NCBI RefSeq assembly: GCF_907163085.1
Contig: NZ_CAJQTX010000004.1
Coordinates: 390,956-454,955 of the forward strand
Direction: 5' to 3'
Length of the DNA: 64,000 bases
Source: Candidatus Accumulibacter sp. ACC003
Lineage (GTDB): Bacteria > Pseudomonadota > Gammaproteobacteria > Burkholderiales > Rhodocyclaceae
The notes beneath the pieces were generated by a model, which saw only the letters and a program-made list of their open reading frames with translations, ran no database searches and was not told the origin of the DNA. Positions within the stretch are counted from its first letter, which is position 1. Every line of letters starts with the position of its first letter. A program made the translations under genes and the position numbers. Of the stretch, positions 4,871 through 30,489 are shown piece after piece.

Positions 4871-4978
4871 ATGTCATTTTTCATGACAGATAACTCCGTT
4901 CAGAAGTGCCGGTCGCTTACAATTGCACGCCAAAGAACCGATGCGCGTCACGAACAGGCCGAGGGAGCAGAAAGCGCC

Positions 4979-7285
4979 GTGGACCAAGCAACGCACAACA
5001 AGATCGTCTCCTTCATCTGGGGCATCGCCGACGACGTCTTGCGCGACCTCTTCAGGCGCGGCAAGTACCCCGACGTGATCCTGCCGATGTGCGTCATCCG
5101 GCGCATGGACGCGGTGCTCGAGCCCAGCAAGCAAGCGGTGCTTGAGACCAGGGCGATGCTGGATGCGGCTCACATCACCGAGCAGCGCGCCGCGCTTTGC
5201 GACGCCGCCGGTCAGGCCTTCTACAACGCCTCCAGGTTCACCCTGCGCGACCTCAGATCCCGCGGCAGCCAGCAACAGCTCCTGGCCGACTTCGAGGACT
5301 ACCTCAACGGCTTTTCGCCGAACGTCCAGGATATCCTCGAGAACTTCAAGTTTCGCAACCAGCTGCCGACGCTGTCGCGCTCCGACTCGCTCGGCACCTT
5401 GATCAACAAATTCCTCGACCCCAGCATCGACCTCTCGCCGGCCGGCATCGACAACCACTCGATGGGCACCGTCTTCGAGGAACTGGTGCGCAAATTCAAC
5501 GAGGAGAACAACGAAGAGGCCGGCGAGCACTGGACGCCGCGCGACGCCGTGCGGCTGATGGCCAACCTCGTCTTCCTGCCGATCGAGGCCGAGATCCGAT
5601 CGGGTACCTATCTGCTCTACGACTGCGCCTGTGGGACGGGTGGCATGCTCACCGTCGCTGAGGAAACGCTGACCGCGATTGCCGAAAAGCGTGCTCAGCA
5701 GGTCAAGACACTGCTCTATGGCCAGGAGATCAACCCGGAAACCTACGCCGTCTGCAAGGCCGACATGCTGCTCAAGGGCGAGGGCGAGAGTGCCGAGCAC
5801 ATCGTTGGCGCCGCCGAGTGGTCCACGCTGTCGCACGACGCCTTCCCTGCGCAAGAGTTCGACTTCATGCTCGCCAATCCACCCTACGGCAAGAGCTGGA
5901 AGAAGGATCTCGAGGCGATGGGCGGCAAGGACGGCATGCGCGATCCTCGCTTCAAGGTTATGCACGACGGCGAGGAGCTGTCGCTGGTCACGCGCTCCAG
6001 CGATGGCCAGATGCTCTTCCTCGCCAACATGGCGGCGAAGATGAATGACAAGTCGGCCTTGGGCAGCCGCATCGCCGAGGTCCATAACGGCTCGTCGCTG
6101 TTCACCGGCGACGCGGGCCAGGGCGAGAGCAACATCCGCCGCTGGCTGATCGAGAACGACTGGCTCGAAGCCATCGTCGCCCTGCCACTCAACCTCTTCT
6201 ACAACACCGGCATCGCGACCTATATCTGGGTACTGTCGAATAGAAAGCCCGCTCACCGCCAGGGCCAGGTGCAATTGATCGACGCCAGCCAGTCGTTCAG
6301 GCCGTTGCGCAAGAACCTCGGCAAGAAGAACTGCGAGCTCTCGCCTGCCGACATCGAGCGTATCAGCCAGACCTTCCTCGACTTCAAGGAAACGCCGGAG
6401 TCGAAGATCTTTCCCAATGACGCCTTCGGCTACTGGAAGGTGACGGTCGAGCGCCCGCTGCGCCTGCATAGCCAGATCACTCTCAAGGCCATCGAGACGC
6501 TGAGCTTCGCGTCTGGTGACGAAGACCTGCGTGCTGCCCTCCACGACGAATTCGGCGACGAGCTGTTCACGGGTTTTCCCAGGATTGCCGCCGCAGTCGA
6601 GAAGCGCCTGGCCAACTGGGGCGCCGATGAGGATGACGGCGAAGATGAAGATGGCGCCGGCACCCGGAAAGGCCTGCCCGAGAACAAGAAGAGAAAACTG
6701 CTCGACGCCAGGACCTGGGCACGCGACGCTCGCCTGGTCGAAATCGCCACAATGCTGCGCGGCGCGCTCGGCGATCAGCTTTTCGAGGACCACAACGAGT
6801 TTTGCGACCGCTTGAGCACCGCGCTCAAGGAGGCCGGGCGCACGCTTCCCGCCACCGACCTCAAGCAGATCCTCAAGGCCGTGAGCTGGCGCGCCGAGAC
6901 CGCAGCGCCGGTCATCGCCAAGGTCCACAAGCCCGGCAAGCTCAAGGCTGACCCGCTACGCGGCCTGTTCGAGACTTCGGTGAATGGCAAGCCGGCCATC
7001 GTCGACTACGAGCCCGACGCCGAGCTGCGCGACACCGAACAGGTGCCGCTGCTGGAGGACGGCGGCATCGAAGCCTTCATCCGCCGCGAGGTAATGCCCT
7101 ACACGCCGGACGCGTGGATCAAGGCCGCGGCCACCAAGCTTGGCTACGAAGTCAGCTTCACGCGGCACTTCTACAAGCCGCAGCCATTGCGCACCCTGGA
7201 AGAGATCAGCGCCGACATCCTGGCCATCGAGAAGGAAGCCGAGGGTTTGCTCGATGGCTTGCTGATTGGCAGCTCACGCGCATGA
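4979..7285 (+). CDS. hsdM: Type I restriction-modification system, methyltransferase subunit HsdM
   Basis: HsdM binds SAM and, with HsdS, methylates adenine at the N6 position in the recognised site. The protein has the N-terminal helical HsdM domain (HNKIVSFIWGIADDVLRDLF). It then has HWTPRDAVRLMANLVF, the SAM motif CACGTGGML (codons near 5627) and the catalytic NPPYGKSW (near 5875). The frame is open from 4871, but family members begin at the residue encoded by the GTG at 4979 (VDQATHNK), so about 768 residues is preferred; the 4871 and 4883 ATGs lack good ribosome binding sites. The C-terminal extension with an acidic stretch near 6640 is common in this subgroup. It overlaps the next gene by ATGA. 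The gene looks intact, although other parts of the cassette are broken. Confidence 0.93.
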   Translation: MDQATHNKIVSFIWGIADDVLRDLFRRGKYPDVILPMCVIRRMDAVLEPSKQAVLETRAMLDAAHITEQRAALCDAAGQAFYNASRFTLRDLRSRGSQQQLLADFEDYLNGFSPNVQDILENFKFRNQLPTLSRSDSLGTLINKFLDPSIDLSPAGIDNHSMGTVFEELVRKFNEENNEEAGEHWTPRDAVRLMANLVFLPIEAEIRSGTYLLYDCACGTGGMLTVAEETLTAIAEKRAQQVKTLLYGQEINPETYAVCKADMLLKGEGESAEHIVGAAEWSTLSHDAFPAQEFDFMLANPPYGKSWKKDLEAMGGKDGMRDPRFKVMHDGEELSLVTRSSDGQMLFLANMAAKMNDKSALGSRIAEVHNGSSLFTGDAGQGESNIRRWLIENDWLEAIVALPLNLFYNTGIATYIWVLSNRKPAHRQGQVQLIDASQSFRPLRKNLGKKNCELSPADIERISQTFLDFKETPESKIFPNDAFGYWKVTVERPLRLHSQITLKAIETLSFASGDEDLRAALHDEFGDELFTGFPRIAAAVEKRLANWGADEDDGEDEDGAGTRKGLPENKKRKLLDARTWARDARLVEIATMLRGALGDQLFEDHNEFCDRLSTALKEAGRTLPATDLKQILKAVSWRAETAAPVIAKVHKPGKLKADPLRGLFETSVNGKPAIVDYEPDAELRDTEQVPLLEDGGIEAFIRREVMPYTPDAWIKAAATKLGYEVSFTRHFYKPQPLRTLEEISADILAIEKEAEGLLDGLLIGSSRA

Positions 7286-7614
7286 AGAAATGCGCTGAGC
7301 AGCCGGGCCGTGGCGCTGCCAAGCAGGCGGCGACGGGGCCAGGGCCCTCCGTCACCGCCGCGCCAACGCTCGCTGGCGAAGCCACGCTTCTCAGCGATCT
7401 GCGAACGCTCGTCCAGTCGGCCCGCCAGCGGCTGGCCAACGTTGCCAACGCCACCTACACGCTACTCTGCTGGCAGCTCGGGCGCCGCTTGCTGCGTGAG
7501 AACCTGCATGGGGGGCGCGCGGCTTACGGCAAGCAGGCTCTTGCGACAGTGTCGCAACAATTGACAACCGAGTTCGGAGCCGGATTCAACCAACGGTGTC
7601 CGGCTGCCTCATAG
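7282..7614 (+). pseudogene. YhcG-like (DUF1016) nuclease, 5' part, split by an IS4-family element
   Basis: The frame starts at the ATG overlapping the hsdM stop. It encodes the N-terminal DUF1016 helical domain (LLSDLRTLVQSARQRLANV and LLCWQLGRRLLRENL). True coding ends at 7590, where the IS4-family element begins; the last codons to 7614 are IS sequence. Joining 1-103 here to the segment at 9157-9975 gives a continuous 375-residue protein. YhcG-type proteins are PD-(D/E)xK nucleases often found in type I RM cassettes. Confidence 0.85.
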
Positions 7615-9147
7615 GTATGCCAACAACAATGGCCGCAACTGGGCCTCGTAGAGCGCCTGCGAGGCGGGTTTGTGAAAACAGTGCTTAAAAAACCGCAGGA
7701 CTTGGCGGCTCACCTTGGAGGTGTAGCGGAATACCGGGGCAGTCCAGTCGGGGCGATCGGTCCCGTCGGTCGCCGAGGTCTGGCGCCGGTCCTGCTTGCG
7801 CAAAGCCTTCTCGTCCACGATTCCGTGCTGCCCCATTCTGTAGTGCACCAGCAGGGCCACCAAGAGGCTGGTGACAACGGCCAGGCGGACCTGATTCTCG
7901 ATGGCCGCCACACTGGCGCCCCATGCCTTGGCGAGGCTGAAGTCGTTCTTCCATGTGTCGAAACATTTCTCCTCCTCCCAGCGGCGGGAGTAGAGGAAGG
8001 CGATGACGCCGGGCGCGAGGTCGAACTCGTTGGTCAGAAACTCCACGAGATGTCCTCGTCGGCTGCGGAAGGTGATCAGGCGCCAGTGTTGGCGGGAACT
8101 GAGCAAGGTGATGCGCAGATCGTTGAGCACCCCGTCGTTGGCCGGGACATCCTCGATCTTTAAGGGCTCGGTGGACTCGACGCACAGGCTGCTTTTCATG
8201 CGCGTGATCATGGTCACGCCCAAGCTCTTTTTCCGGTCATCCCAAAACGTCGCGTCGATGAAAGCGCGGTCGACCAGCCACAGCGCGCCCTTGTCACGGG
8301 TCATGGCCTGCGCGGATTGGTCATAGTCGCGCAACAGAGTGATTTCGTGGCGACTGCGGGTGTCGACGTGCACGTCGGTGGGGCAACCCAGGCGCACGTC
8401 GTAGAAGCTCAACAGCGCGTGCCCCTTGGGATTGTCCGTCCCGCCCTGGCGGGGCGTACACCGCCCGTAGTGGGCGCTTTCGCTCTGATAGGTCCCATCC
8501 ATTGCATACACCGGCCGTCCTTGCAGGGCTGGGAATTGCGCCAGGCGATCCGGCAGCGCGGCCCGGGCCTCGGTGAGCAACGGCGGCATCGCCGCCTCCA
8601 AGACCGTGCGGCGGCGGCGCGAGGACAGCGCGTCCGACCAGGTGGAACGTGCCAGCGGGACGCGCTGCGCCGTCCCCGGCTCGCAATGCAGCAGCGACTG
8701 CACCTGCTCGCGCAGGGTGCGCATGCCCTGCAGGTGGCGCAGCACCCCCAGGCCGATAAAATCCGCCATGCTCAACACTCGCGATACCGCGTCGGTACCG
8801 CGCACCTGCGCCAAGGCACGAGCCATCGGCGCCAACAATTCACCCAAGACGGTTTGGTTCATGAGGCTATCCATGACCGCAGTTAATCGTTCGGTATCCA
8901 CAAGACACTCCAATAAGCTGTTGTTTATACAGCCAAAATTGCGAGTATTTTGCCAAACCTTTGTCAAGTGTTTTTCGCATTATTTTAAAAATATTTTTGC
9001 CGCCTCAATATCCGCGCCATAGAGCACGTCGATTTCGAACCTGCCGCTTTTCTATTAAATGCTCAAATTATCCGCGTATAACACGACTGCGACGCCGCCT
9101 TGTGGTGGATTACCTGCTTCGGCCAAAATTCAAGCCGGACACCGTTG
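7591..9147 (-). mobile_element. IS4-family insertion sequence, 1557 bp
   Basis: The ends are 15-bp inverted repeats (CAACGGTGTCCGGCT). The element is flanked by the 9-bp direct repeat GGATTCAAC at 7582-7590 and 9148-9156, the normal footprint of a transposition event. It carries one transposase gene on the minus strand and interrupts the DUF1016 gene in frame. The perfect duplication and intact transposase suggest a recent insertion. Confidence 0.95.
7609..8901 (-). CDS. IS4-family transposase
   Basis: A DDE transposase of about 430 residues. The first Asp is in YAMDGTYQSE and the second in LWLVDRAFID. The YREK signature of the IS4 family is complete in YSRRWEEEKCFDTWK (Y-2-R-3-E-6-K). The GTG at 8901, eight bases after GGAG, is preferred; the frame is open further to a TTG at 8967. 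The stop is only 18 bases inside the left end of the element. The gene looks functional. Confidence 0.92.
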   Translation of the reverse strand: MDTERLTAVMDSLMNQTVLGELLAPMARALAQVRGTDAVSRVLSMADFIGLGVLRHLQGMRTLREQVQSLLHCEPGTAQRVPLARSTWSDALSSRRRRTVLEAAMPPLLTEARAALPDRLAQFPALQGRPVYAMDGTYQSESAHYGRCTPRQGGTDNPKGHALLSFYDVRLGCPTDVHVDTRSRHEITLLRDYDQSAQAMTRDKGALWLVDRAFIDATFWDDRKKSLGVTMITRMKSSLCVESTEPLKIEDVPANDGVLNDLRITLLSSRQHWRLITFRSRRGHLVEFLTNEFDLAPGVIAFLYSRRWEEEKCFDTWKNDFSLAKAWGASVAAIENQVRLAVVTSLLVALLVHYRMGQHGIVDEKALRKQDRRQTSATDGTDRPDWTAPVFRYTSKVSRQVLRFFKHCFHKPASQALYEAQLRPLLLAYL

Positions 9148-9156
9148 GGATTCAAC

Positions 9157-9975
9157 TACACCGCCCTGACACGGATGGCCCGGTTTGCCGAATGGATGAT
9201 CGACGAACAAATTCTTGCGACGCTGTCGCAAACATTGAGCTGGAGTCACTTCGTCGAATTGCTGCCGATCAAGGACCCGCTGGCAAGAGACTTCTACGCC
9301 GAGATGTGCCGTATCGAGCGCTGGGATGTGCGCACCTTGCGGCAGAAGATCGGCAGCATGTTGTTCCAGCGCACCGCGCTGTCGAAGAAACCGCAAGCCG
9401 TCATCGCGGCGGAGATCGACCGGCTGCGCGATGGGCACATGACTCCCGACATCGTATTTCGCGATCCCTACCTGCTCGACCTGCTCGGACTCAAAGGCGC
9501 CTATAGCGAACGCGACCTCGAGAGCGCCATCCTGCGCGAGATCGAGGGCGTGCTTTTGGAGCTGGGCTCGGGCTTCGCCTTCCTTGCCCGACAAAAGCGC
9601 ATGAGCGTCGGCAAGGACGATTTTCATCTCGATCTGCTTTTCTTTCACCGCCACCTGCACCGGCTGATTGCCGTCGAGTTGAAACTGGAGTCTTTCCAGC
9701 CCGCGCATGTCGGCCAGATGGAGCTGTACCTGCGCTGGCTGGATAAGCACGAACGCGCCCCCGGTGAGAAAGCCCCGATCGGACTTATCCTGTGCGCCGC
9801 CGCCGATGCCGAGCAGGTGGAGCTGCTTCAGCTCGACGCCAAGTCCATCCGTGTCAGCGAGTACCTCACGGAGTTGCCGCCACTGCCACTGCTGCGCGAG
9901 CGCCTGCACCAGGCGATCGAACACGCGCGAGAGCAGGCGGCCAGGCAACTGCCTGGCTCAGAGGAGCAAGCATGA
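9157..9975 (+). pseudogene. YhcG-like (DUF1016) nuclease, 3' part with catalytic domain
   Basis: This 273-codon segment continues the DUF1016 gene after the IS4 element (GFN, then YTALTRMARFAEWMID). It carries the C-terminal PD-(D/E)xK nuclease core: DFHLDLLFFHRHLHRLIAVE followed by LK supplies the Asp and the ExK. The apparent ATG at 9100 lies inside the IS, so any product would be a hybrid lacking the N-terminal domain. Its stop overlaps the next gene by ATGA, as in an operon. In related loci DUF1016 proteins are thought to help restriction or defence, but the role is not established. Confidence 0.85.
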
Positions 9976-10277
9976 GCGACGATGACGCCATGCAGGCGAT
10001 CCACCGCCTCGCCGGTAGTCTGCTGCATCTTCAGCAGCAGGCCGCCCAACAGTACCTGCCGGTTGTTGATAACATCCTGCGCACCCGCTCGCGCGATACC
10101 CGGCACATCGAGCATACGCTGGATGGTCTGCTCGACTTCTGCGGCCACGAACCCGTCCTGCGGATGTACAAGAAGCTCTGTCGTCACTATTGGGACATCG
10201 ACCCGAACGCCACTGCCTATTACGTCAATGCTTATCGCGAATATTGGGATAGTAACGAACAGGACGGCCAGCCATGA
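9972..10277 (+). CDS. Small conserved-looking protein of the RM cassette
   Basis: A 101-residue protein between the DUF1016 gene and hsdS, overlapping both neighbours by four bases, with GGAG eight bases before its ATG. It is helical and polar. Its C-terminal part (MYKKLCRHYWDIDPNATAYY, then VNAYREYWD) is rich in aromatic residues. No catalytic motif, membrane segment or zinc site is visible. I do not recognise a named family. The tight coupling with hsdS argues for a role in the RM complex or its control, which is inference. Confidence 0.7.
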   Translation: MSDDDAMQAIHRLAGSLLHLQQQAAQQYLPVVDNILRTRSRDTRHIEHTLDGLLDFCGHEPVLRMYKKLCRHYWDIDPNATAYYVNAYREYWDSNEQDGQP

Positions 10278-11701
10278 TCGCCGACCTCAAGCCGTATGCG
10301 GAATACAAGGAGTCGGGGTTGCCGTGGCTTGGTCAGGTGCCAGCGTCATGGCAACTGCGACGAGCCAAGTTTCTGTTTCGCGAGGTCGACGAACGATCCA
10401 AGACAGGCAAGGAAGAGGTGCTCTCTGTGTCGCATAAAACGGGAGTTACGCCGCGTAGTCAAAAAACCGTCACGATGTTTCTGGCCGAGTCCAACGTTGG
10501 GCACAAGATTTGCCGTCCTCAGGACTTGGTAATCAACACGCTATGGGCTTGGATGGCCGCCCTCGGAGTGTCGATGAACACGGGAATCGTCAGCCCGGCC
10601 TACGGCGTCTATCGCCCACTCACGCCAGGGCAATTGCTACCCCGCTTCGCAGACTTGCTACTGCGCACTTCTATCTATGCCGCTGAATATCAGCGCCGCT
10701 CGACGGGTGTAAGCAGTTCGCGTCTGCGGCTCTATCCAGAGGATTTCCTCCGTATTCCTGTTCTCTTCCCCAGCGCTGAGGAACAGGCCGTCATCTTGCG
10801 CTTTCTGGACTGGGCGACCGGGCGGCTGGAGCGGGCGATCCGGGCGAAGCGGAAGGTGATCGCGCTGCTCAACGAGCAGAAGCAGGCCATCATCCACCGC
10901 GCCGTCACCCGCGGCCTTGATCCCTCCGTTCCACTCAAACCGTCCGGCATCCCCTGGCTCGGGGACATTCCGCAGCATTGGGTGGTGCGCCGGCTGCGGA
11001 CGCTGGTCCACGACATCGATCAGGGTGTTAGTCCGCTCGCGGTGGGCTTTCTCGCCGAAGGCAATTCCTGGGGCGTGCTGAAGTCTGGTTGCGTTAATAG
11101 GGGAGTGTTCCGCGAAACTGAGCACAAACAGCTGGCACGCGGTTTTGAGATCGATCCCGATATTGTGGTGAAGGTCGGTGATGTCCTCATTTCACGTGCC
11201 TGCGGGTCACCTAAGCTAGTCGGTTCCGTTGGGCGCGTGAAGTCACTCCGCCATCAACTCATTCTCTCTGACAAGACATTTCGCGCCCGCTTTCGTGGCA
11301 GTGTGAACGTCGACTTCATGGTTTTTGCCATGAACTGCGTCTACTACCGTCATCAGGTTGAGCGGGCAATCAGTGGAGCGGAAGGAATGGCTAACAACCT
11401 TCCGTTGTCAGCTCTTCGCAATTTCACTTTCGCAGTTCCGCCTACGAACGAGGCTACAGCGATCTCTGGTTACGTTGAAAGCGAAACGGCGGAACTACAA
11501 ACTGTCACCGCTCGCCTCGAACGAGAAATCCAACTCCTCCGCGAATACCGCACCCGTCTCGTCGCCGACGTCGTCACCGGCAAGCTCGATGTGCGCGAGG
11601 CGGCGGCGCGGCTGCCCGACGAAGCGCCGCTCGACATCGCCGAGGACGACGACGCCCTGACCGACGAAGCCGAAGTCGCTGACGAGGAGCTCACCGAGTG
11701 A
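10274..11701 (+). CDS. hsdS: Type I restriction-modification system, specificity subunit HsdS
   Basis: HsdS (475 residues) sets the DNA target of the HsdM/HsdR complex through two target recognition domains separated by conserved helices. Each half opens with the typical GLPWLGQVPASW and GIPWLGDIPQHW motif (near residues 14 and 217). Each ends with the coiled region EEQAVILRFLDWATGRLERA or TAELQTVTARLEREIQLLRE. The length and duplicated layout are complete, so the subunit looks functional. The acidic C-terminal tail is somewhat long. It overlaps the genes on both sides. The recognised sequence cannot be predicted from here. Confidence 0.93.
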   Translation: MIADLKPYAEYKESGLPWLGQVPASWQLRRAKFLFREVDERSKTGKEEVLSVSHKTGVTPRSQKTVTMFLAESNVGHKICRPQDLVINTLWAWMAALGVSMNTGIVSPAYGVYRPLTPGQLLPRFADLLLRTSIYAAEYQRRSTGVSSSRLRLYPEDFLRIPVLFPSAEEQAVILRFLDWATGRLERAIRAKRKVIALLNEQKQAIIHRAVTRGLDPSVPLKPSGIPWLGDIPQHWVVRRLRTLVHDIDQGVSPLAVGFLAEGNSWGVLKSGCVNRGVFRETEHKQLARGFEIDPDIVVKVGDVLISRACGSPKLVGSVGRVKSLRHQLILSDKTFRARFRGSVNVDFMVFAMNCVYYRHQVERAISGAEGMANNLPLSALRNFTFAVPPTNEATAISGYVESETAELQTVTARLEREIQLLREYRTRLVADVVTGKLDVREAAARLPDEAPLDIAEDDDALTDEAEVADEELTE

Positions 11702-13275
11702 GCACCGAGCGCAGCGCCGACTATCTGGCGGGTCTGGTCCGCGAGCTGTGCAAGCTGCCACATGAAACCGAGTGGCTGGAGTTTAAGGTCGACAATGCCG
11801 ATCCGCAGGCGATTGGTGAGTATCTTTCGGCACTGGCCAACGCGGCGGCTTACAACGGAAAAGCGTTCGCGTACCTGGTCTGGGGTGTCGAAGACCAGAC
11901 CCATCGCATCGTTGGAACCCGCTTTGCACCTGCCACCTGCAAGAAAAGCAACGAGCCGCTGGAGAGCTGGTTGTTGCGGCTGCTCACGCCAAAGATTCAC
12001 TTCCGCTTCTACGAGCTGACGCTGGAGGACCTGCCGGTGGTGTTGCTGGAGATCGGCCGGGCCTTTCGTCATCCGCTGCGATTCCAGAATGAGGCCTTCA
12101 TTCGCATCGCTTCCGTCAAGAAGCCGCTGAAAAACGCCCCCGACCGCGAGCGTGAGCTGTGGCGGATCTTCGACCAGACGCCCTTCGAGGACTTGATTGC
12201 CGTTGAACGCGCCAGCGCGGACGAGGTATTGCGCTTGCTGGATTATCCGGCCTACTTCGACCTGCTCGAACAGGCCCTGCCGAGCAATCGCGATGGCATC
12301 CTCGAAGCCCTGGCCGACGATGGTCTGATCAAGCCCTGCGAAGCCGGAGGCTGGAATGTCACCAAGCTTGGCGCGATGCTGCTTGCCAAGCGTCTGGGAG
12401 ACTTCCGCGCCTTGCGGCGCAAGCTGCTGCGGGTGATTCAGTATCGCGGTATCGGCCGCACCGAGACACTCAAAGAGCACGAGTTGAGCAAGGGTTATGC
12501 CTGCGGTTTCGAGGAATTCAATGCCTACATCGACGGCCTGCTGCCGTCCAGCGAGGTCATCGGCCAGGCGCTGCGCAAGACCGTGCCGATGTTTCCGGCG
12601 CTTGCCGTGCGCGAACTGGTGGCGAATGCGCTGATCCACCAGGATTTCTTCGTCACGGGTGCCGGGCCGACCGTGGAGATCTTTGCCGACCGCATTGAAA
12701 TCACCAATCCGGGTGAACCGCTGGTGGACACCCAACGCTTCGTCGATACCCCGCCGAAATCTCGCAACGAGGCGTTCGCCTCACTGATGCGGCGGTTTCG
12801 GATTTGCGAGGAGCGCGGTAGCGGCATTGACAAGGTGATTGGCGAGGTCGAGCGCTTTCAGCTCCCGGCGCCGCTGTTCGAGGTGCCGCCGGGATTTACG
12901 CGGGTCGTGCTGTTTGCGCACCGCCCTCTGAATGAAATGGATAAGGCCGATCGGCTGCGGGCGTGCTATCTGCATGCCTGCCTTCGTCATGTGACCCGCC
13001 AGTCGATGACCAATGCCTCGGTACGGGCGCGTTTTGGTATCGCCGAAAAAAATTCGGCCACCGCCTCGCGGCTGATTCGGGAGGCTGTAGCCGCAAGATG
13101 TATCGCTCCCTACGATCCGCATGCGGCACCTAACGGTCATTGCGTGAGGCGGCTCGCGCCACCCCGGATGATGAAAGAAAATACGAGTGGGTGGAAACGG
13201 CAGAGGTCGAGCAATGAGATGGTGGTTGGACGAAGCCGCTACGCGGAGGAAACCCCGGTGCTGTCGTCGCGTTGA
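11698..13275 (+). pseudogene. AlbA_2/Schlafen-domain putative DNA-binding ATPase, C-terminus displaced by IS elements
   Basis: The native protein has an N-terminal AlbA_2 (Schlafen-like) domain (ETEWLEFKVDN and FAYLVWGVED). A GHKL-type ATP-binding region (VRELVANALIHQDF, IEITNPGEPL, EERGSGIDK) and a winged helix follow. It is the group formerly called RecG-related transcriptional regulators and is common in type I RM cassettes. Native coding runs to about 13131 (YDPHAAP); the remaining codons to 13275 are IS91-like DNA. The missing tail KLMRYVPIWA lies at 17113-17169, in frame once the inserts are removed, for about 496 residues. Because only the last 18 residues are replaced, the protein may still work. 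The start overlaps hsdS by ATGA. Confidence 0.85.
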
Positions 13276-13338
13276 CTCAAGATGTGACCTCGCCCCTCAT
13301 CCGAGGGACGTTCATGACGAATGCGAGGTTACCGCAAG

Positions 13339-14255
13339 ATGGAAGAGATGTCCGCTGTCGCAACGACGATTTTTGACACGAACTACGAGCTGCACCAGAA
13401 GCACCTGAAGCTCAAGGGCTTGCAGCCGAAGACGATCGACGCGTATTCGCGCGCCGTCCGCCGGGTGGGAGATTACTTCGCTCATCAGATCGACGATCTG
13501 AGCGAGGCCGACCTGTTGGATTACTTCGCCGACCTGCGTGAGACGCACTCCTGGAGTTCGCTCAAGCTCGATCTGTACGGGCTCAAGTTTTACTACGAGC
13601 ACGTGCTGAAGAAACCCTGGGTGGCGCCCGGTCTGATCAAGCCGCCGCGCTCGCTGCGCCTGCCGGACATCGTCACGGTCGAGGAGACCGAGCGGATTTT
13701 TCTGGCCACGCAGGTGCTCAGTTACCGCGTTTTCTTCTTCACCCTCTACAGTCTCGGCCTGCGCCTGGGCGAAGGCTTACGGCTGACGGTCGCCGACATC
13801 GACGGCGCGCGCGGGCGGGTGCATATCCGCGATGCCAAGGGCAACAAGGATCGCCTGGTGCCGCTGCCGACGGCCACCTACCGACTCCTGCGTTGTTTCT
13901 GGCAGCGCCACCGTAATCCCGTTCTGCTGTTTCCCAATCGCCGCGGCGGCTTGCCAGGTGCGAGCAGCGCCAGGACACCGCTCAATCGCAGCGGCGTTCA
14001 GAAGGCACTGCGGGCGGTGGTCGAATCCTGCGGGCTAAAAAAAACATTTCGCCGCACAGTTTGCGTCACGCCTATGCCACGCACCTGATCGAGGCGGGCG
14101 TCGAGCTCACCGAGGTGCAGAGCATTCTCGGCCATCACTCGATTCTCACGACGGTTCGCTACACCCATCTGACGGATCAAACCCGGCATCACGCCATCGA
14201 CCGCATCAACGCGCTGATGGACCGCTTTTGTCTGAGCAAGGGGACGCCGCGATGA
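13339..14255 (+). pseudogene. Tyrosine recombinase of the IS91-like element, frameshifted or -1 frameshift expressed
   Basis: The N-terminal SAM-like core-binding domain and the first catalytic Arg (GLRLGEGLRL) and Lys (KGNKDRLVPLP) are in the frame that ends at 14088. The HxxR box (PHSLRHAYATHL) and the Tyr nucleophile (TTVRYTHLT) are in the -1 frame, ending at 14255. The switch falls at a run of eight A (14037-14044). Either one A is missing, or ribosomal -1 slippage joins the halves. The full product would be about 305 residues. Its stop overlaps the start of the IS91 transposase. Confidence 0.8.
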
Positions 14256-15358: not shown

Positions 15359-15668
15359 TCGTGTAAGCCGCCTTCACAGCGCTGTCCGGCCGCCTTTGGG
15401 ACTTCAGTTTCCCCAAGCTGAGTGACGGGGTCGCCCGGAGTTCAGTGGCCGGGACGCCAAAACGGCCGGATTTGCGCGATCTTCGCTGACGGTGCCGCAG
15501 CGCGCGGCGACGGCCCGCTCCCCGCCCTTCGGCATTCATGCCTGCGGGGTAAATCCAAAAAAGATATTTGCAGAGGGCGCGCCCAGCGCTCCGGCCCGGG
15601 CTCGTCCAACAAACGGATCAGATCGTGGCTTCGCACGATCTATCCTTATTCGTTGGACCCCGATGCCT

Positions 15669-18594: not shown

Positions 18595-18723
18595 TGAACT
18601 GATTCCGAACGAGCGGCAGACGGTGAGGTCCCCGCCCGGGCGGGGACCCCACACAGTTTGCTCCTGTCATTAGAACGGCCGTTCTGGTTTGATCACCGCT
18701 CCGATTTATCACCAGGAGTGGTT

Positions 18724-20052: not shown

Positions 20053-20053
20053 G

Positions 20054-20849: not shown

Positions 20850-21046
20850 AGCGCCGCTCTGCCGAGCCGCTATTCCCCGACGGCCTCTCCGATGAAAGCG
20901 TGGCCGCGCTCAGCCACTTCCTTCACCAACTCGCCGTCGCTTGCGAAAGCCGCTATGCCGTACAGCTACGCCGCTACCACCAGCGGCAGATGAATCTGTA
21001 CGACCCCGAAGAGCCTTGGCGGTTGCCGCTGCTGCCGCCTCGGTAG
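20846..21046 (+). CDS. Small protein of the transposon
   Basis: A 66-residue protein whose ATG overlaps the ATPase stop (ATGA). It is helical, with the core LSDESVAALSHFLHQLAVA and a Pro-rich tail. Its position as fourth gene in a coupled operon makes it probably real. No domain is recognised; a regulatory or target-selection role is only a guess. Confidence 0.6.
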   Translation: MKRRSAEPLFPDGLSDESVAALSHFLHQLAVACESRYAVQLRRYHQRQMNLYDPEEPWRLPLLPPR

Positions 21047-21170
21047 GGCCTTCATCCCACGTTGCCGCCGGGATCACTCTTCCGGTTGCAGCATGGGACT
21101 CGGCCATCGTTTCAACCTCGAAAAGCTTGGGCCGAGGAGTCTGGATTAGGGCCGGACGTAACACCGCGAC

Positions 21171-23471: not shown

Positions 23472-23703
23472 CCCTTTTTCGCTCACTAGAACGGATCCAG
23501 GAGATGCGCAGGAGTCGGCCATCTGCGCGATGCCGGCTGTGATCGAATGAGGTTTTGTGGCGGCGCGGCGGCGCGGCGACACGCTCCGTCCGACGGGGAT
23601 TTTTTTGACGGTAAATGGATGCGCTTGGCGCGTGCGGCAGGGAGGCCTCGGAGCTGGGTCAAGGGCAGGCTGCGGCTTTTTGCAGCCTGGCGAAGCCTCC
23701 CTT

Positions 23704-26079
23704 CAGATTTCCTGATCTCGGAGGAAACCGGGTTGGCACTTCAGACAAGAGTGAAGGTCATTCTTGCCCCGGTTTCCGGATGCGGAAAATCTTGCAGGGT
23801 GAGTTCCTCGAGGAGCGCGGCGATAGCGCGATCATGAGCTGGGCTGGCCATCCGGTGAATTTTGATGGTCAGGGTGTTGGCTAGCGCGTTCGGTTCGATG
23901 TCAGCGGAAGAAACGAACAATTCGCGAATGAGCGCACGTGCGTCGTCCTCCTTCTTCAAGTGGCGGCGCAATAGCGCCACCATGGCGGTCTCGGCCCGGT
24001 AGGCGACCATTTTCACGGTATCGCAGAGCATCTTGTTCAGCGGCGGCAGTTGGGTCGGTCGCTCGGCCTCGGGCAGACTGTCGATCGTCACCTTTCGGGG
24101 GCTTGCCTTGCGCGCCGCGCAAAGTCGCTTGAGCTCCTCCTGAACGGCCTGCAGTGCTTCGACAGACTCGGCGTTTTTCTGGATTTCGCCGCCGTCGTTC
24201 AAGGCCGTCCTGGCGATTGCGGCCTGCAGTTTTCTTTCGCTCTGGCGGGTTTGCCTGACGGCCTTGTCGAGTTCCCGCCAGCGGGGGTTAACGACCTGGT
24301 GAGTGCCGGGAAGAGATTCGTCTCCGTACTCGATAAGCCCATCAATATCATAATGTTCCATCATGTACGCGAAGTAGTTTTCCTGGCACCAACGGGCGAA
24401 CATCCGCCCAGCGATGGTGGTGTTTCCGAGTTGCCGGGCGGTCGTGATCACGGCTGTTTGATGTCCCGTCTGGGTCAGCCGACGAACTTCGCTCACGGCC
24501 AGGCTGCCATCGCCTGTGCCGAGTCGGGTTTCGCGCATGGCGAGTTTCATCCCGGTGCTGCCGCCTGCCGGCAGATGGACTTCCTGTTCCTGAAACACCT
24601 CTTCGGACCAGAGGTCCTTGACGTTCTTGCGGTAGGTCAGTGCGCCGATGCGCTGTTTCCAGAGTCTGCCGAGGAGACTCTGGGTGGCCCCTTCCCGATC
24701 GAAGACCATGACAAACCGGTGCAGGGTCGGGTCGGCGTCCAGTTCGGCCGGCGTCGGCTGTCCCGGGACAATCTCCAGCAGTTGCGGGACGATGTCCTTG
24801 AGCAGGGTCTCGGCGAGTCCGTCATTGAGCGGCTGCGAAACCACAAAGAACGGGCGACCCAGGGCATCGTTAACCCAGTAGTCGGTGGTGCCCCGCAGGC
24901 ACAGGCGTTCGCGCGAGACGTAGCGCTTCGACAGCCTGGCCTGCTCGCCGTGATACACCCGAACATGACCATCGACATACAGGTAACCCGCTTCTTCTGG
25001 CTCGCTTTCCATCCAGAGCTTCGCGAGATCCCGCATCCAGGCTGCCGGGTCACCCGTCTTGGCCAGCAGATGGACCTTTTCCCGCAGGGTGCGGACTTCC
25101 GGTACCCGGTCCAGGCCGATGACTTTGCCGAGTTCTCCGGGCGAGGTTTGTCGCAGATGTTCCGGCCGCTTGATTCGCCCCAGGGCCATGAAGCCGAGGA
25201 CGAGAAGGATGTGCAAGGCGCTGTAGAATCCCCGGGGCAGCTTGAGATGGCGATCCAGGCCGGTCAGTAGCCCGTTCGCGCACAAGGCCGGCAAGCCGGC
25301 CAACAGCCCCCCCATCGCCACATCGTGGCTCGCTTCGAAGCGCGTCGTCGCACCGGTCGCCAATCCCAGCGCCGTTTGGATCCGCTCGTCGGCGCGCGTG
25401 CAGGCGGTGCCCATCCCCGCGGCGGCTTCCGCATCCGCCCGGCTGCGCTCACTCTTGGTGCTCGCCGCTTCCAACTCCCCTGCCTCTTGCGGCAAGGCGG
25501 CCAACTGCGGCACGCCCTGGCGCCGGATCGCCTTGCGCAGCGTCGACTCCTGGACGCCCACCTGCCGTGCCACTTCGGCAGGACGCTTTCCCTCGCTCAA
25601 CAGCCGCGCGCATTCGGCACTCTTGTCCGGCGTCATGATCCGCGGCCGGCTCGCCGCCGCCGGTCGAAAGAAAGACGATGGCCCGGCTTTGCGGCTTTGT
25701 CCCACCCAGTTCATCAGCGTGCGGTGCGGGATGCACAGCGGTGGCCTTTCCAGTTCGACCGCCTTGACGTGCCCGTTCTCCATCAGGCTGGTCAGAGCGA
25801 ACCTGCGGCCAGCGTCGTCTCCTACGGGGTGCGAGAAGTAATTGTCTCCCCCAACAAAGTAGATCGCTTGGCCATCCTTCTCCAGAATGGCCAACCCTTC
25901 TCCCACTTTCTGCGCACCATCCGGAAACCCTGGAAGCCACGATTGCCTCAACGTCTGCTCCTCCTTGCACTCCTAGCGAAGCTTGGTTTATGCCATAAGA
26001 AAATCATGGCCGTCAAAATAAAGTGCCACGTGCAATTCCGGAATTCTACCTACATTCCCGGCCGGGATCAGGAAATCTG
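23704..26079 (-). mobile_element. Nested 2.4-kb IS with a 736-aa transposase
   Basis: The ends are 18-bp inverted repeats of the form CAGATTTCCTGATCYCGG with one mismatch. The flanking 5-bp duplication is CCCTT (23699-23703 and 26080-26084). It lies between istB and the left end of the IS21-family element, so it arrived after that element. I cannot assign it to a named IS family. Confidence 0.85.
23741..25951 (-). CDS. Large putative transposase, 736 residues, family unassigned
   Basis: The sole gene of the nested IS fills nearly all of it. The N-terminal part contains a helix-turn-helix (SEGKRPAEVARQVGVQESTL). The middle contains acidic residues in segments like YLYVDGHVRVYHG and RFVMVFDREG, spaced as in DDE enzymes, with a later candidate Glu in ENYFAYMMEHYDIDGLIEYG. 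The C-terminal half is helical. The first in-frame ATG at 25951 is used, about 130 bases inside the right end. The gene looks intact. Confidence 0.75.
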   Translation of the reverse strand: MRQSWLPGFPDGAQKVGEGLAILEKDGQAIYFVGGDNYFSHPVGDDAGRRFALTSLMENGHVKAVELERPPLCIPHRTLMNWVGQSRKAGPSSFFRPAAASRPRIMTPDKSAECARLLSEGKRPAEVARQVGVQESTLRKAIRRQGVPQLAALPQEAGELEAASTKSERSRADAEAAAGMGTACTRADERIQTALGLATGATTRFEASHDVAMGGLLAGLPALCANGLLTGLDRHLKLPRGFYSALHILLVLGFMALGRIKRPEHLRQTSPGELGKVIGLDRVPEVRTLREKVHLLAKTGDPAAWMRDLAKLWMESEPEEAGYLYVDGHVRVYHGEQARLSKRYVSRERLCLRGTTDYWVNDALGRPFFVVSQPLNDGLAETLLKDIVPQLLEIVPGQPTPAELDADPTLHRFVMVFDREGATQSLLGRLWKQRIGALTYRKNVKDLWSEEVFQEQEVHLPAGGSTGMKLAMRETRLGTGDGSLAVSEVRRLTQTGHQTAVITTARQLGNTTIAGRMFARWCQENYFAYMMEHYDIDGLIEYGDESLPGTHQVVNPRWRELDKAVRQTRQSERKLQAAIARTALNDGGEIQKNAESVEALQAVQEELKRLCAARKASPRKVTIDSLPEAERPTQLPPLNKMLCDTVKMVAYRAETAMVALLRRHLKKEDDARALIRELFVSSADIEPNALANTLTIKIHRMASPAHDRAIAALLEELTLQDFPHPETGARMTFTLV

Positions 26080-26087
26080 CCCTTGAC

Positions 26088-26295
26088 GCAGCGGAGGGGC
26101 GCGAGACTGAGGGGTGGCAGTAAGCGCGGCAGTATCGGGCTTACTGCCCTGGAGACGGGTGTTTGCGTGGATCGAATTCGCGCCGATCGCCGTTTCAGCT
26201 ACTGATTATGGTGACCCTCCCGGCGGCGGTCAGGGCGCGAGCGGGCGAGCAGCTCAGCCGCCGGCGAGCGATCCAGTGCACACGCCGCCGCGCCT
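26088..26295. other. Noncoding stretch between the nested IS and istB
   Basis: About 200 bases of the IS21-family element downstream of istB. It contains an inverted repeat around 26130-26152 (GCAGTAAGC...GCTTACTGC) that could form a hairpin and may act as a terminator for the minus-strand operon. No gene is seen. Confidence 0.4.
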
Positions 26296-27117
26296 TCAGG
26301 ACGCCGCGGACTCGTTCGTTGGGGCGATGCTCCTCGACGCCGAGCCTTTCGCCGCCGCTACCGAGGCCGCCGTCGCGATCGTCGGGGCGCTTCCTGGCTC
26401 GCTGCGCAGAGAAGGTCCGCTCAAGCGCAGGATGATGCAACGATGCTGAAGTCGGTCGAGCAGCGCATCGACGAGCGGCTTCCTCTGAAACAGCTCGTAC
26501 CAGTCGGGCAGATCGAGATTCGTCGTGATCAGCGTTGACAGCCCCAGGCTATAGCGCTGATCCATCAGGCGGAAGAAGGCGTTGACCTGTTCCGGCTTCA
26601 GGTTGAGGTAGCCCAGTTCATCGATGGCGATCAGCGGCATGCGGCACAACTGGTTGAGCAGGCCCACCGTCGAGCGATCGGCAAGCGAGGCATACAAGGC
26701 GTCGAGCAAAGCCTGCGCGTTGAAGAAGCGTGCGCGATAACCGTTCAGACACGCTTCACGGAGCAATCCCAGCGCGATCCCGGACTTGCCGGTCCCCGGC
26801 GGACCGATCAACAACACGTTCTCGCCCCGGCGCAGGAATTCCAGTCCGGCCAGCGTCATCACCTGCGCCTTGTTCACGCTCGGCTGCCGCGCAAACGGAA
26901 ACGACTGCAAGGTCCACGGCCAAGGCAAATGCGCCTGGCTCAGGCGATAAGCCAGACTCTTCTCACGTCGGGCCGCGTCTTCCGCGCCGAGCAGACGGAA
27001 GAGCACCTCCGGAACCGGCGTCCCCTGGCGCTCGGCCAAATCGAGTTCCGCATCGAGCACCGCCGCCATCCCCGACCAGCGCATCTGCCCAAGCAAAGCC
27101 TTCAGACGCTCACGCAT
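26296..27117 (-). CDS. istB: IS21-family ATPase IstB
   Basis: IstB (273 residues) is the AAA+ helper that loads the IstA transposase onto target DNA. Walker A is LLIGPPGTGKSGIALGL and Walker B is MPLIAIDELGYLNL, followed by sensor TLITTNLDLPDWYELF. The ATG at 27117 fits the GGAGG upstream; in-frame ATGs at 27120 and 27129 are alternatives. It overlaps the istA end. The C-terminal tail (after CIILRLSG) is longer and more Ala/Ser-rich than in most IstB proteins. Confidence 0.9.
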   Translation of the reverse strand: MRERLKALLGQMRWSGMAAVLDAELDLAERQGTPVPEVLFRLLGAEDAARREKSLAYRLSQAHLPWPWTLQSFPFARQPSVNKAQVMTLAGLEFLRRGENVLLIGPPGTGKSGIALGLLREACLNGYRARFFNAQALLDALYASLADRSTVGLLNQLCRMPLIAIDELGYLNLKPEQVNAFFRLMDQRYSLGLSTLITTNLDLPDWYELFQRKPLVDALLDRLQHRCIILRLSGPSLRSEPGSAPTIATAASVAAAKGSASRSIAPTNESAAS

Positions 27118-28537
27118 CATCACCTCCATCGTCGAGATTGAAGAAATCCCCCGCCACCTGCTGCAGGATCATGTGCTCCAGGCGACCCATGTCGAACAGA
27201 CCGAACTGCAGCGCCTGTGCCACGGCTGCCAGCAAAGGCTCCTTCGGATAGGTCCGCTTGAAGTCCAGCAAGCGGCGCAGCGGTCGCACCCCCCGGCCAT
27301 GCGCCTGCCGGACCAGCGCGGCGACATACGCATCGAGCAGCGGGTCGTGCCCCTGCAACAATGTCGCCTCGCGAGGCGGCGTGCGCGGCCGCGGCTGCGG
27401 GGTCGGGTGATGCCCGGGGAGCTTCTGCTTCGTATCGCGCACGCCAAGCAGGCGGGCATGCACGGCGAGCAGTTGCTCACCCCGGCAGACCCTGACCTCG
27501 GTGGCATACAGATAGACGCTCAGCGCCTTGCCCACCCAGCGCTCGGGCACCGAATAGCGATTCGTCTCAAGCGACACGAAGCCCTGCAGATCGACCACCC
27601 GCTCGACGACTTGATAGACCGGCGGCAGCACCGCCGGCAGCGGCTGCAGGCAAGGCCTCTCGACGGCGTAGGCGGCGCTTGGCGCCACCCCCAGAGCGCG
27701 CTTCGGTTTGGCATTGGCGACGTTCTCGCACCAGGCCAGCACCTGCGCGTTCAGGTCGGCGAAATCGCGAAACGTCCGGCCGGCCAGGAAATTGCCTTCG
27801 ATCCAGGAAAAAGGTCTTTCAATCCTCCCCTTGCGATCGGGTTTGTTCACCGCGTGCGCGCGGAAAGCGAAGCCCAGCGTACGTGCCAGGGCGACCATCT
27901 CGGGCGCAAACACGGCCTCGTCGCCGGCCCCGGCGACGACGATCACGCTGGTATTGTCGATGACGCAGGTCGGGCAGCTGCCGGCCATGAAACGGACGGC
28001 TTCGAGCAGGAACTGCTTGGCTTCGAAACGCGTGAAACGCGGAAAGTACTGAACGAAGAGCCGCCGCGAATACGCCAGGATCAGTGAGGCGCATTGCGCC
28101 GTCAGCGGCTTGCCGGCCAGGATCACGCGATGTGGCGAGGTATCGTGTTGCATCTCCTGACCAGGGGCGAAGTAATATTCGCCGGCGCGTTTCGGCGGCG
28201 TGCGCAGATCGGCATCGCGGATCCAGCGGGTCAGCGTGCTGTAGCCCGGACGAAGGTCCAGCTCCGCGGCCAGCATCTCCTGGATCCGCACCCCATTGCC
28301 GCGCGCGCGCTCGAAGGCCGAGACCAGCCAAAGCCGAACCGGCGCTGGGCACGCGACAGGCGCCGGGCACGCGGCTGGCCGAGCGCCCTCTGCGGTATCG
28401 GGCGGGGAAGCCGCCGGATACCGCAGGATACGGCGAACGGTGTTACGCGAGAGCTTCAAGAGCCGGCTGATCTCGCGCAGCGCCAGACCTTGCTGATGCA
28501 ATGTCAGCACGGCTTGATGAATTTCGGGCGATTTCAT
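27110..28537 (-). CDS. istA: IS21-family transposase IstA
   Basis: A 475-residue DDE transposase. It opens with a helix-turn-helix (LALREISRLLKLSRNTVRRI) and has integrase-core acidic residues in QHDTSPHRV, CVIDNTSVIVV and RKGRIERPFSWIEGNF. A C-terminal beta-barrel domain follows. GAGGAAGG lies nine bases before the ATG. The start lies within the 3' end of the ParB-like gene (95-base overlap), so the two are probably translationally coupled. istB follows with a short overlap. Confidence 0.92.
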   Translation of the reverse strand: MKSPEIHQAVLTLHQQGLALREISRLLKLSRNTVRRILRYPAASPPDTAEGARPAACPAPVACPAPVRLWLVSAFERARGNGVRIQEMLAAELDLRPGYSTLTRWIRDADLRTPPKRAGEYYFAPGQEMQHDTSPHRVILAGKPLTAQCASLILAYSRRLFVQYFPRFTRFEAKQFLLEAVRFMAGSCPTCVIDNTSVIVVAGAGDEAVFAPEMVALARTLGFAFRAHAVNKPDRKGRIERPFSWIEGNFLAGRTFRDFADLNAQVLAWCENVANAKPKRALGVAPSAAYAVERPCLQPLPAVLPPVYQVVERVVDLQGFVSLETNRYSVPERWVGKALSVYLYATEVRVCRGEQLLAVHARLLGVRDTKQKLPGHHPTPQPRPRTPPREATLLQGHDPLLDAYVAALVRQAHGRGVRPLRRLLDFKRTYPKEPLLAAVAQALQFGLFDMGRLEHMILQQVAGDFFNLDDGGDDA

Positions 28538-29438
28538 CGGGGCATACCTTCCTCAGGTGGCACTGAAGAGACGCCAGCGCCAATTGCAAAGCGCCGACCG
28601 CGGTGGTGACGGCGGGCGGCAGCTCCGCTGGCGAGGGCGCCAGGGCGAACAACCGCCGAGCCAGACGGGCGCCCACCGCGTCGAGAATGCGGATGTCGGC
28701 CAGGACTTCGCCTTCCGGACCCTCGCGCAGGCTCTCGGCGCTCTTCTCGTCGGCTTTGGCGGTCAGCGAATTGAGCAACAGCTGTGGGGCCTCGACCATC
28801 CGCTCGCGCACCGTCCGGGAAGCGCCTTGATACTGCGCGAACCAGGTCGCCAGCTGGCGGGTCGTCAGCGGCGTCGTGTGCAAACTCTCCAGTAGCTGTT
28901 CGGCGTGGGCGCTGTTGGCGCGCGCCAACGGGCCGAGAATCCGCACCGCCGCCCAGGTCGAGACCTTTCCCTGGCGTACCGCCGTCAACACCGCATCCGA
29001 GAGGACCGTCACGAGTTGCAGGCGGCGACTGACCCAGCTCACGTCGCGGCCGCAGCGGCGGGCGATTTCATGCTGGCTCAGGGGGCCGCTGGCGATCAGT
29101 TCGCGCAGCAGCAGCGCTTCTTCGATCGGCGCAAACGCGCGGCTGCGGGTTCGTGCCAACACGCCCAGCAGGCCTTGCACCGGATCGCCGTCCCAGCATT
29201 CGACCTCGGCCGTATCCCGGCCGAGTTGCCGCAACGCGGCGACGCGTCGATAGCCGTCGAGCAGGATCGCCGAGTTGCCCTCGCCGGCGACCGCGATGCA
29301 CGGGACGAGCTGGCCATTGACCGCGATCGATTGGGCCAGACGCGTGATCGCCGCCGTATCCAGCACGCGAAGATCGGCGTAGCGCAACTCCAGGCGGTGC
29401 AAATCCAGAGTCTGAGCCGTAGCGGCCGTGTGATCCAT
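28443..29438 (-). CDS. ParB-like N-terminal nuclease/partition domain protein of the IS21-family element
   Basis: A 331-residue protein with the ParB/Sulfiredoxin fold: DTAAITRLAQSIAVNGQLVP, then ILLDGYRRVAALRQLG, and a helix-turn-helix SQHEIARRCGRDVSWVSRRL typical of KorB/ParB DNA binding. AGGAGGT precedes the ATG. The C-terminal half has helices without an obvious dimer domain. As second gene of a four-gene IS21 operon it may bind the GGGTCA end repeats or influence target choice. This is inference; plain IS21 elements lack such a gene. Confidence 0.8.
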   Translation of the reverse strand: MDHTAATAQTLDLHRLELRYADLRVLDTAAITRLAQSIAVNGQLVPCIAVAGEGNSAILLDGYRRVAALRQLGRDTAEVECWDGDPVQGLLGVLARTRSRAFAPIEEALLLRELIASGPLSQHEIARRCGRDVSWVSRRLQLVTVLSDAVLTAVRQGKVSTWAAVRILGPLARANSAHAEQLLESLHTTPLTTRQLATWFAQYQGASRTVRERMVEAPQLLLNSLTAKADEKSAESLREGPEGEVLADIRILDAVGARLARRLFALAPSPAELPPAVTTAVGALQLALASLQCHLRKVCPDEIARNSSSRADIASARSGAARDQPALEALA

Positions 29439-29524
29439 GCGCTTGACCTCCTATGGCATCCAGCCTAGCGAGGCGACCGCCGCAAGGCGATCGAGTCCTC
29501 TCTTTGCAAGCCGCGGCAGGGGCC

Positions 29525-29956
29525 TCAGGGCGAGGCGCAAGCGGCTGAAATAACGGTGATTTCAACCATCCACGCGTTCTTCTTTGCAAGCGACGCGTCC
29601 ACTACCCGCGATAGGCGATAAGTGCCTGAGGAAAAGCCTGTTTCAGCCATTGACGCGTCCATCTTTGCAACGCCGGCCGGGGCGGGCGCGCGTTCCCGCT
29701 GCCGAGCCCGATTGCGTGCGACGTACTCCGGATGCTGCTCTCGATACGCCCGCCAGTAGTCGGGGTGACGCTCCGCCCAGGCCTTCTGCGCACGCTTCTG
29801 GTTATCGCGATAGTCGGGATCGTTCTGGCGCTTGGCCGCCTGCCAACGCCGTCGCCGTTCGCGCTGGCAGGCGGCGGCCGAACAGAAGCATTGGTCGGGG
29901 TTCTGCGGACGCGGCCGGAACGGCTGGTGACACGCCTCGCACTGTCGGAATTCCAT
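29525..29956 (-). CDS. Small Cys-zinc-finger protein of the IS21-family element
   Basis: A 143-residue basic protein that starts MEFRQCEACHQPFRPRPQ. Cys at CEAC and then CFCSAAAC form a likely zinc knuckle, followed by a long Arg/Tyr-rich helix (QKRAQKAWAERHPDYWRAYR). GGGGAG precedes the ATG. It is the first gene of the element's operon. DNA or RNA binding is likely from composition. The C-terminal part is less conserved-looking. Confidence 0.65.
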   Translation of the reverse strand: MEFRQCEACHQPFRPRPQNPDQCFCSAAACQRERRRRWQAAKRQNDPDYRDNQKRAQKAWAERHPDYWRAYREQHPEYVARNRARQRERAPAPAGVAKMDASMAETGFSSGTYRLSRVVDASLAKKNAWMVEITVISAACASP

Positions 29957-30302
29957 GACGGTTTCTCCCCACACGACGTCGTGCGGGAAGAATGGGCCCG
30001 TGCCGGGCTTCCTGTCGCGGAGCCGGAGAGCTGGCGAGGCTTGATCGCAACCTGGCGGCGGGCGGACTCGGCGAACGCGACGAGCTTGGCGAAGGGGCTT
30101 GACCGCGCAATCAGAAGGTCGGGCAGCCGGAGCGACGCGCGCTGCCGCGTTGCCAACGGGCGATGCCTGCCGAACCAAGCTTGGGGAGTTACGAAGTTCG
30201 CTTTCCGGGAACCACTACGGGCCTCAACACGGGCTCAATGGGTCACGCTTGATGGGTCAGCTTTGGTGAGCAAAGGCGGGTCAGTTCCGGGGAGCGTCAA
30301 GG
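29957..30302. other. Upstream end of the IS21-family element
   Basis: This stretch holds the presumed promoter of the minus-strand operon and the terminal repeats with three GGGTCA units. An apparent plus-strand frame here is a shadow. Confidence 0.5.
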
Positions 30303-30308
30303 GAACAC

Positions 30309-30489
30309 GCCTCACACCGCACGCATGGCGCACGACCAGGCGCTGGCCAAGGCTATGCAGCACCTACTGAAAGACGACACGCAGGTCTACAAGCAGTTTG
30401 TCGAGAATGAGTCGTTCAAGCGTTTCGTGGGCGATATGGTGTTCACGATGACCAATCAGGGTGGGGGAATGCCTTCTTCCAGGCTTTAG
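30309..30489 (+). pseudogene. hsdR: hsdR, 3' segment
   Basis: After the duplicated GAACAC the frame reads PHTARMAHDQALAKAMQHLL and then KQFVENESFKRFVGDMVF, the conserved C-terminus of this HsdR subgroup. It joins in frame to KEN at 23443 through the TSD codons. The ATG at 30325 is internal to the original gene. The stop is TAG at 30487-30489. Confidence 0.85.

Follow-up and report, generated by a model that had tools for sequence, protein, structure and literature searches.

A type I restriction–modification cassette broken by mobile elements

Within a 64,000-nucleotide stretch of Candidatus Accumulibacter sp. ACC003 (contig NZ_CAJQTX010000004.1, positions 390,956 to 454,955; this whole stretch is called the window), we found a type I restriction–modification (R–M) cassette with the gene order hsdM, DUF1016/YhcG nuclease, 101-aa open reading frame (ORF), hsdS, AlbA_2 and hsdR. 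The genome assembly has 13 contigs and a total length of 5.39 Mb, and the window lies within one contig of 630 kb. Gene identities were taken from Pfam and PADLOC, with NCBIfam used also for the 101-aa ORF and the elements, and every gene that an earlier sequence-only reading of the window had named was present. That reading had also counted at least six transposable elements. Six were found, of six kinds: four primary insertions, in the DUF1016 gene, in the AlbA_2 gene and twice in hsdR, and two elements nested in primary ones. As had been proposed, the frames of hsdM and hsdS are intact, and insertion is the cause of the loss of a whole HsdR. The HSDR_N nuclease and SWI2/SNF2 motor domains are both present, on separate pieces of a gene cut twice. 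A working HsdR made by fusion or re-start was rejected, because the nuclease part (17288–17884) and the motor part (from 21171) are separate pieces. Restriction has probably been lost, as no whole HsdR could be translated, and the functions of DUF1016 and AlbA_2 would be lost as well.

The uninterrupted cassette can be read back

Removal of the inserts restores the interrupted genes, as the sequence-only reading had predicted. The three hsdR pieces (17288–17884, 21171–23449 and 30309–30489) join in frame to exactly 3057 bases, and the DUF1016 gene joins to 1128 bases; each has one terminal stop. Perfect target-site duplications (TSDs) of 5–9 bp were present at four elements: the IS4-type, IS481-like/AAA, IS21-type and Transposase_29 elements. 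Comparing each element with its other copies in this genome, and with relatives, gave sharp edges. The expectation that each insert can be removed with one target duplication held for these four elements but not throughout: for the IS110-family element no TSD was identified, and the edges of the IS91-like element are ambiguous by a few bases.

The comparison with relatives that had been suggested yielded both an uninterrupted cassette and, for every primary insertion except that of the IS110 element, empty sites. When the joined 45-base flanks of each insertion were aligned to relatives' loci, a gap-free empty site was found for the IS4-type element in two of three loci tried (L027 and L046), and for the IS481-like and IS21 elements in four of four loci each. 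Terminal repeats, TSDs and an empty site in relatives, by which inactivation by an insertion sequence (IS) is recognized, were thus found for all three of these elements. The IS110 site had no nucleotide match in any of the three relatives' loci tried; its evidence is at the protein level, where the tail beyond the element, KLMRYVPIWA, corresponds to KLMKYVPFWA in L046. L046, from a Nitrosovibrio metagenome-assembled genome, carries all six genes uninterrupted and in the window's order, the one such locus among 90 related loci (L025–L114, with at least one genome included twice; mostly metagenome assemblies, whose stops and gaps may be errors). The sequence-only reading had named a different gene order in relatives as a reason to doubt it. 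None was seen: M, S and R were all present in 59 of the 90 loci, and in 59 of 59 they followed the order M-S-R on one strand. More than 300 bases lie between M and S in 53 of 59 loci and between S and R in 38 of 58, so that cargo genes appear to be the rule in cassettes of this HsdM family. By record titles, the family spans many phyla.

The insertions look recent

Near-full copies of the inserted elements elsewhere in the genome were 96–100% identical to the inserts, with the exception of one 88% IS110 copy, and shorter fragments ranged down to 77% identity. The IS21 copies (96–99%) and IS481-like copies (98–99%) were the more diverged. Copy counts are lower bounds, because scoring covered 40 of 214 and 40 of 228 first-look candidates. 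The Transposase_29 element had at least 23 near-full copies, the window copy included.

The hsdR pieces carry no internal stops. Median ratios of nonsynonymous to synonymous substitution (dN/dS; pairwise Nei–Gojobori estimates, not branch-specific) were 0.19, 0.14 and 0.10 for the 5′, middle and 3′ pieces in pairs that include the window, and 0.17, 0.14 and 0.07 for the corresponding pieces of uninterrupted relatives (28 pairs each). For hsdM, the median was 0.13 in both sets. No clear relaxation of constraint is visible in the hsdR pieces. Because this constraint is close to that of relatives and the copies elsewhere are 96–100% identical, the insertions look recent.

Genes and elements of the cassette

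Coordinates are collected in Table 1. HsdM matched the PADLOC MTase_I model with an E value of 1.3e-252. Its start is probably the GTG at 4979 rather than the ATG at 4871, because 66 of 80 related loci match only from residue 31 of the longer frame onward; the match began earlier in 14 of 80. HsdS had no Pfam family at E 0.001, and its identity comes from PADLOC. From hsdM through AlbA_2, inserts apart, adjacent frames overlap by four bases in an operon-like manner. The 101-aa ORF had no family match in Pfam, NCBIfam or PADLOC. It occurs in 5 of the 90 related loci (L035, L046, L048, L086 and L090), in two of which a whole DUF1016 gene is absent, and a remnant was seen in a further Accumulibacter genome (G014, L210).

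Table 1. Positions in the window of the cassette genes, their pieces and the inserted elements (TSD, target-site duplication)
Feature	Position	Strand	Remarks
hsdM, intact	4979..7285	+	HsdM_N and N6_Mtase (Pfam), NPPY motif; longest ORF from 4871
DUF1016/YhcG-type PDDEXK nuclease gene, 5′ part	7282..7590	+	Gene matches DUF1016_N/YhcG_C
IS4-family element, 1557 bp	7591..9147	-	Terminal repeat CAACGGTGTCCGGCT; TSD GGATTCAAC at 7582-7590 / 9148-9156
DUF1016/YhcG gene, 3′ part	9157..9975	+	PADLOC PDC-S02
101-aa ORF	9972..10277	+	Just upstream of hsdS
hsdS, intact, 475 aa	10274..11701	+	PADLOC Specificity_I model, E 8.4e-102
AlbA_2 + HATPase_c_4 (Schlafen-type) gene, codons 1-477	11698..13128	+	Pfam
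IS110-family element	13129..17113	+	In AlbA_2 gene; own-genome copies share left end
IS91-like element (tyrosine recombinase + Y2 transposase), 2434 bases	13225..15658	+	Nested near IS110 left end
AlbA_2 gene, 3′ tail	17114..17168	+	Beyond IS110
hsdR, 5′ part (HSDR_N)	17288..17884	+	Pfam
DUF6431 + rve transposase + AAA element (IS481-like)	17885..21163	+	In hsdR; terminal repeat TGTTACGTCCG; TSD CCGCGAC
hsdR, middle part (SWI2/SNF2, T1R_D3-like)	21171..23449	+	Pfam
IS21-family element with istA, istB and ParB/KorB-like genes	23450..30302	-	In hsdR; TSD GAACAC
Transposase_29 element	23704..26079	-	Nested in IS21; TSD CCCTT
hsdR, 3′ part, stop TAG	30309..30489	+	Joins the frame after insert removal

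The AlbA_2 gene is cut after codon 477. A native origin of the end of its present frame (13129–13275) was rejected, as this is IS110/IS91-like sequence found elsewhere in the genome. The left end of the IS110 element, where the IS91-like insert falls, is non-coding. In IS110 elements, this end encodes a guide RNA, and the window copy, its left end split, may be unable to move. The rve transposase of the 17885–21163 element is IS481-like, with a score below the NCBIfam cut-off. Besides istA and istB, the IS21-type element holds a ParB/KorB-like gene (28443–29438), which belongs to the element, because three near-full copies elsewhere match it. Directly downstream of the hsdR stop lies a two-ORF transposon (30669–31924; HTH_Tnp_1 and rve; IS3-like by inspection) with imperfect terminal repeats.

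Decay of type I systems in the same genome and genus

The genome holds four type I systems, and two of them are damaged. The second damaged cassette (C1:102939-118334; positions 3940-19335 of L115, C1:99000-118999) is broken by copies of two IS families also found in the window cassette. Its hsdM has an open frame of 588 codons that encodes both domains. A Transposase_29 element (TSD AACTG) interrupts its DUF1016 gene, after which comes another DDE transposase gene, and a further Transposase_29 element (TSD CACTT) interrupts its hsdR. About 100 codons of hsdS are left, ending at an IS4-type copy, and a SIR2-like gene comes next; because this copy has no matching target duplications, a deletion is suggested. 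The system on contig C7 (L117) looks undamaged, with open frames for M, S and R. The system on contig C5 (L116, C5:203000-222999, 578-8192) also has open frames, in the order R, S, AlbA_2 and M. AlbA_2 genes, on C5 of the AlbA_2/HATPase_c_4 type, thus occur in two dissimilar type I systems within this genome.

Across the genus, 10 of 28 genomes carry this hsdR family, at a cut-off of at least 67% identity that was fixed after the list was seen. Six of the ten have an open hsdR frame of 995–1070 codons (G022, G012, G019, G004, G027 and G017), and one of these, G017, holds a second set in pieces. The other four have no such frame: the window genome, with its inserts, Ca. A. appositus, G006 and G014. 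In G006, hsdR is on two contigs that overlap by about 200 bases, and in G014 its last 125 codons are left, with most of M, S, AlbA_2 and R gone. In Ca. A. appositus, hsdR is divided between two contigs: codons 1–21 stand at the end of one, and the gene continues from about codon 164 at an end of the other. Each of these contig ends is a 57–63-base repeat that is also present elsewhere in the genome. The DUF1016 and AlbA_2 genes of this species are reduced to scars. Its AlbA_2 gene (L035, 14200-14345) keeps the first ~10 and last ~10 codons around an internal deletion. Ca. A. meliphilus has a whole hsdR, and its hsdM is about 77 codons short and contains an in-frame stop. Because the cassettes of appositus, meliphilus and G014 are broken differently, decay follows several routes, not always through hsdR.

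Clustering of mobile elements

The 9.7-kb cassette received four primary insertions, compared with about 0.11 expected (Poisson p ~6e-6, calculated post hoc), at a density derived from 63 counted copies, a hand-compiled lower bound from which partial copies were omitted without a strict length cut-off. A chance pile-up at the cassette is unlikely. In thirteen 20-kb control stretches (L127–L139, 260 kb), placed at round coordinates and chosen with the copy lists in view rather than blindly, there were no matches longer than 90 bases to the six elements, apart from an IS21 cross-match of 126–128 bases at ~77% in 4 of the 13.

We also asked whether IS pile-ups mark R–M loci, and rejected this idea: among seven IS-rich stretches (L115 and L121–L126, the latter picked for the clusters visible in the copy lists), R–M families appeared in L115 only. 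These scans applied Pfam to 5 proteins of L115 and to 30 of the 56 ORFs listed for L121–L126. R–M genes do not seem to be the sole collectors of elements, because other clusters, as far as scanned, adjoin housekeeping or mobile genes. The negative for L121–L126 is qualified by PF14236, which is named after the Druantia defence protein DruA and matched three proteins (in L123, L124 and L125). Transposase domains share the frame of one of these proteins, and a separate DDE transposase frame adjoins another. We take these proteins to be probable transposon parts.

Interpretation of the locus

We consider it likely that the locus records the recent and probably neutral decay by transposition of a dispensable type I R–M cassette that was whole in an ancestor, in a genome with active IS families. 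On this account, the ancestral cassette (M, DUF1016 nuclease, 101-aa ORF, S, AlbA_2 and R) was intact; four elements struck the cargo genes and hsdR, and two later elements jumped into two of the earlier ones. The nesting places the IS110 element before the IS91-like element, and the IS21 element before the Transposase_29 element. The similar decay of the second cassette at C1:102939-118334, and decay by other routes in other species of the genus, support this explanation. Some observations weigh against it. In this genome, hsdR is disrupted in both damaged cassettes. The window locus is also the largest cluster of the 63 counted copies, with 7 within ~40 kb; in 2000 random placements, which assumed 50 kb each for contigs C12 and C13, the largest cluster averaged 3.7, and 7 was reached with p = 0.009. 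Such a cluster size could mean target preference or selection instead of neutrality. Finally, the junctions are those of the assembly.

The sequence-only reading had gone further, proposing that the locus changed from restriction to methylation only and that relief from the cost of restriction explained its tolerance of so many inserts. Under such a domestication, loss of HsdR would have been favoured or would have freed the locus, and hsdM and hsdS would be kept as an orphan M2S1 methyltransferase for useful methylation. Both frames are indeed intact and HsdM has its NPPY motif, so that the locus has the make-up expected of an orphan type I methyltransferase, hsdM and hsdS intact and hsdR lost. 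However, on gene length alone four random insertions would spare both of these genes with p = 0.14, and the insertions look recent, so that the survival of hsdM and hsdS needs no explanation by selection. The hsdR pieces do not change faster than those of relatives, an argument for recency alone. Between hsdM and hsdS stands the IS4-type element, whose transposase points the opposite way, and a polar loss of hsdS expression is plausible; the M2S1 enzyme could form only if hsdS is transcribed across or after this element. No + strand sigma-70-like site was found in 8700–10300. This carries little weight, as the stretch 4300–5100 upstream of hsdM gave none either, so that promoter scans do not decide expression. 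Moreover, hsdS is only a remnant in the second cassette, and in Ca. A. meliphilus it is hsdM that is broken, beside a whole hsdR. The idea that relief from the cost of restriction explains so many inserts is likewise unsupported. HsdR acts on DNA only together with M and S, so that loss of M or S would be harmless too. M2S1 and R2M2S1 assemblies have been described (PMC12707154). In favour of domestication, in Staphylococcus aureus loss-of-function alleles of hsdR (4% of strains) exceed those of hsdM (0.2%) and hsdS (0.9%) (PMC13216270). A methylation-only state is possible and received no positive evidence; as an explanation of the locus, we think it unlikely, and the proposed change to it was not borne out.

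Selection could instead have acted on the loss of restriction itself, if cells without HsdR benefit from the uptake of foreign DNA or from escaping self-restriction, in which case methylation may lapse. In this vein, hsdR-negative S. aureus strains are described as transfer gateways (PMC13216270), IS insertions disable cas genes and are found in RM and Dnd loci (PMC10359306), and hsdR, besides being incomplete in Ca. A. appositus, is disrupted in two of this genome's cassettes. However, hsdR is the likeliest target because it is the longest gene of the cassette (3057 of 9711 bases), and DUF1016 and AlbA_2 were lost as well. Six of the ten genus genomes with the family also retain an open hsdR frame, as do the C7 and C5 systems of this genome, together with open S and M frames. 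We regard selected loss as distinctly improbable. If loss of restriction was selected, the locus would bear on the trade-off between immunity and DNA uptake in phage-exposed wastewater bacteria. A broader conjecture, in which IS activity is a recurrent selected off-switch for type I immunity, with hits in hsdR and DUF1016 that leave methylation-only remnants in some lineages, would draw on the two cassettes of the present genome and the further break in Ca. A. appositus, and strikes us as a long shot. An assembly artefact, in which misjoined repeats mimic gene interruption, is suggested by the multicopy nature of the elements, but perfect TSDs and in-frame flanks are unexpected from misjoins, and the window is internal to a 630-kb contig in an assembly of 13; we give this explanation very little credence.

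Neutral decay of a dispensable defence locus is therefore the most likely account of this cassette, an ordinary case of gene decay that is unusually legible. It clearly captures a defence cassette in the course of dying by transposition, with relatives showing the ancestral state and the nesting of the elements revealing some of the sequence of events. It also carries a warning that Accumulibacter genomes annotated with this R–M family may lack restriction.

Comparison with known systems

Searches of the literature on Accumulibacter with restriction-modification and transposase, or with type I restriction, gave nothing on this locus as judged from the listings, and nothing on it appeared among the matches listed in broader searches (best 15 of 3,809 and best 12 of 5,335). 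Its two ingredients, IS insertions in R–M loci (PMC10359306) and cargo genes within hsd loci (PMC5183652 and PMC2610378), are already known. The closest likeness to IS-disabled defence loci is with the IS1 and IS10 insertions in cas genes and the IS found by genome mining in RM and Dnd clusters (PMC10359306); compared with these, the present genome has six elements of six kinds in one cassette, two of them nested, and two damaged type I cassettes. Orphan or solitary lineage-specific methyltransferases (PMC12707154) resemble the locus in that their modification enzyme has no restriction function as its partner, whereas the disruption here looks recent and the methyltransferase is predicted from frames. 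In Geobacillus kaustophilus, a dead hsdR piece lies beside an IS4-family transposon that carries rloC (PMC2610378). That piece is a C-terminal relic in a genome that has a complete hsd locus at another place, whereas here the whole cassette is in place. By position, the cargo genes resemble the mlo and rlo ORFs in the hsdM–hsdS and hsdS–hsdR intervals of the hsd loci of Campylobacter jejuni (PMC5183652; rlo, PMC2610378); the cargo in the window cassette consists of DUF1016, the 101-aa ORF and AlbA_2.

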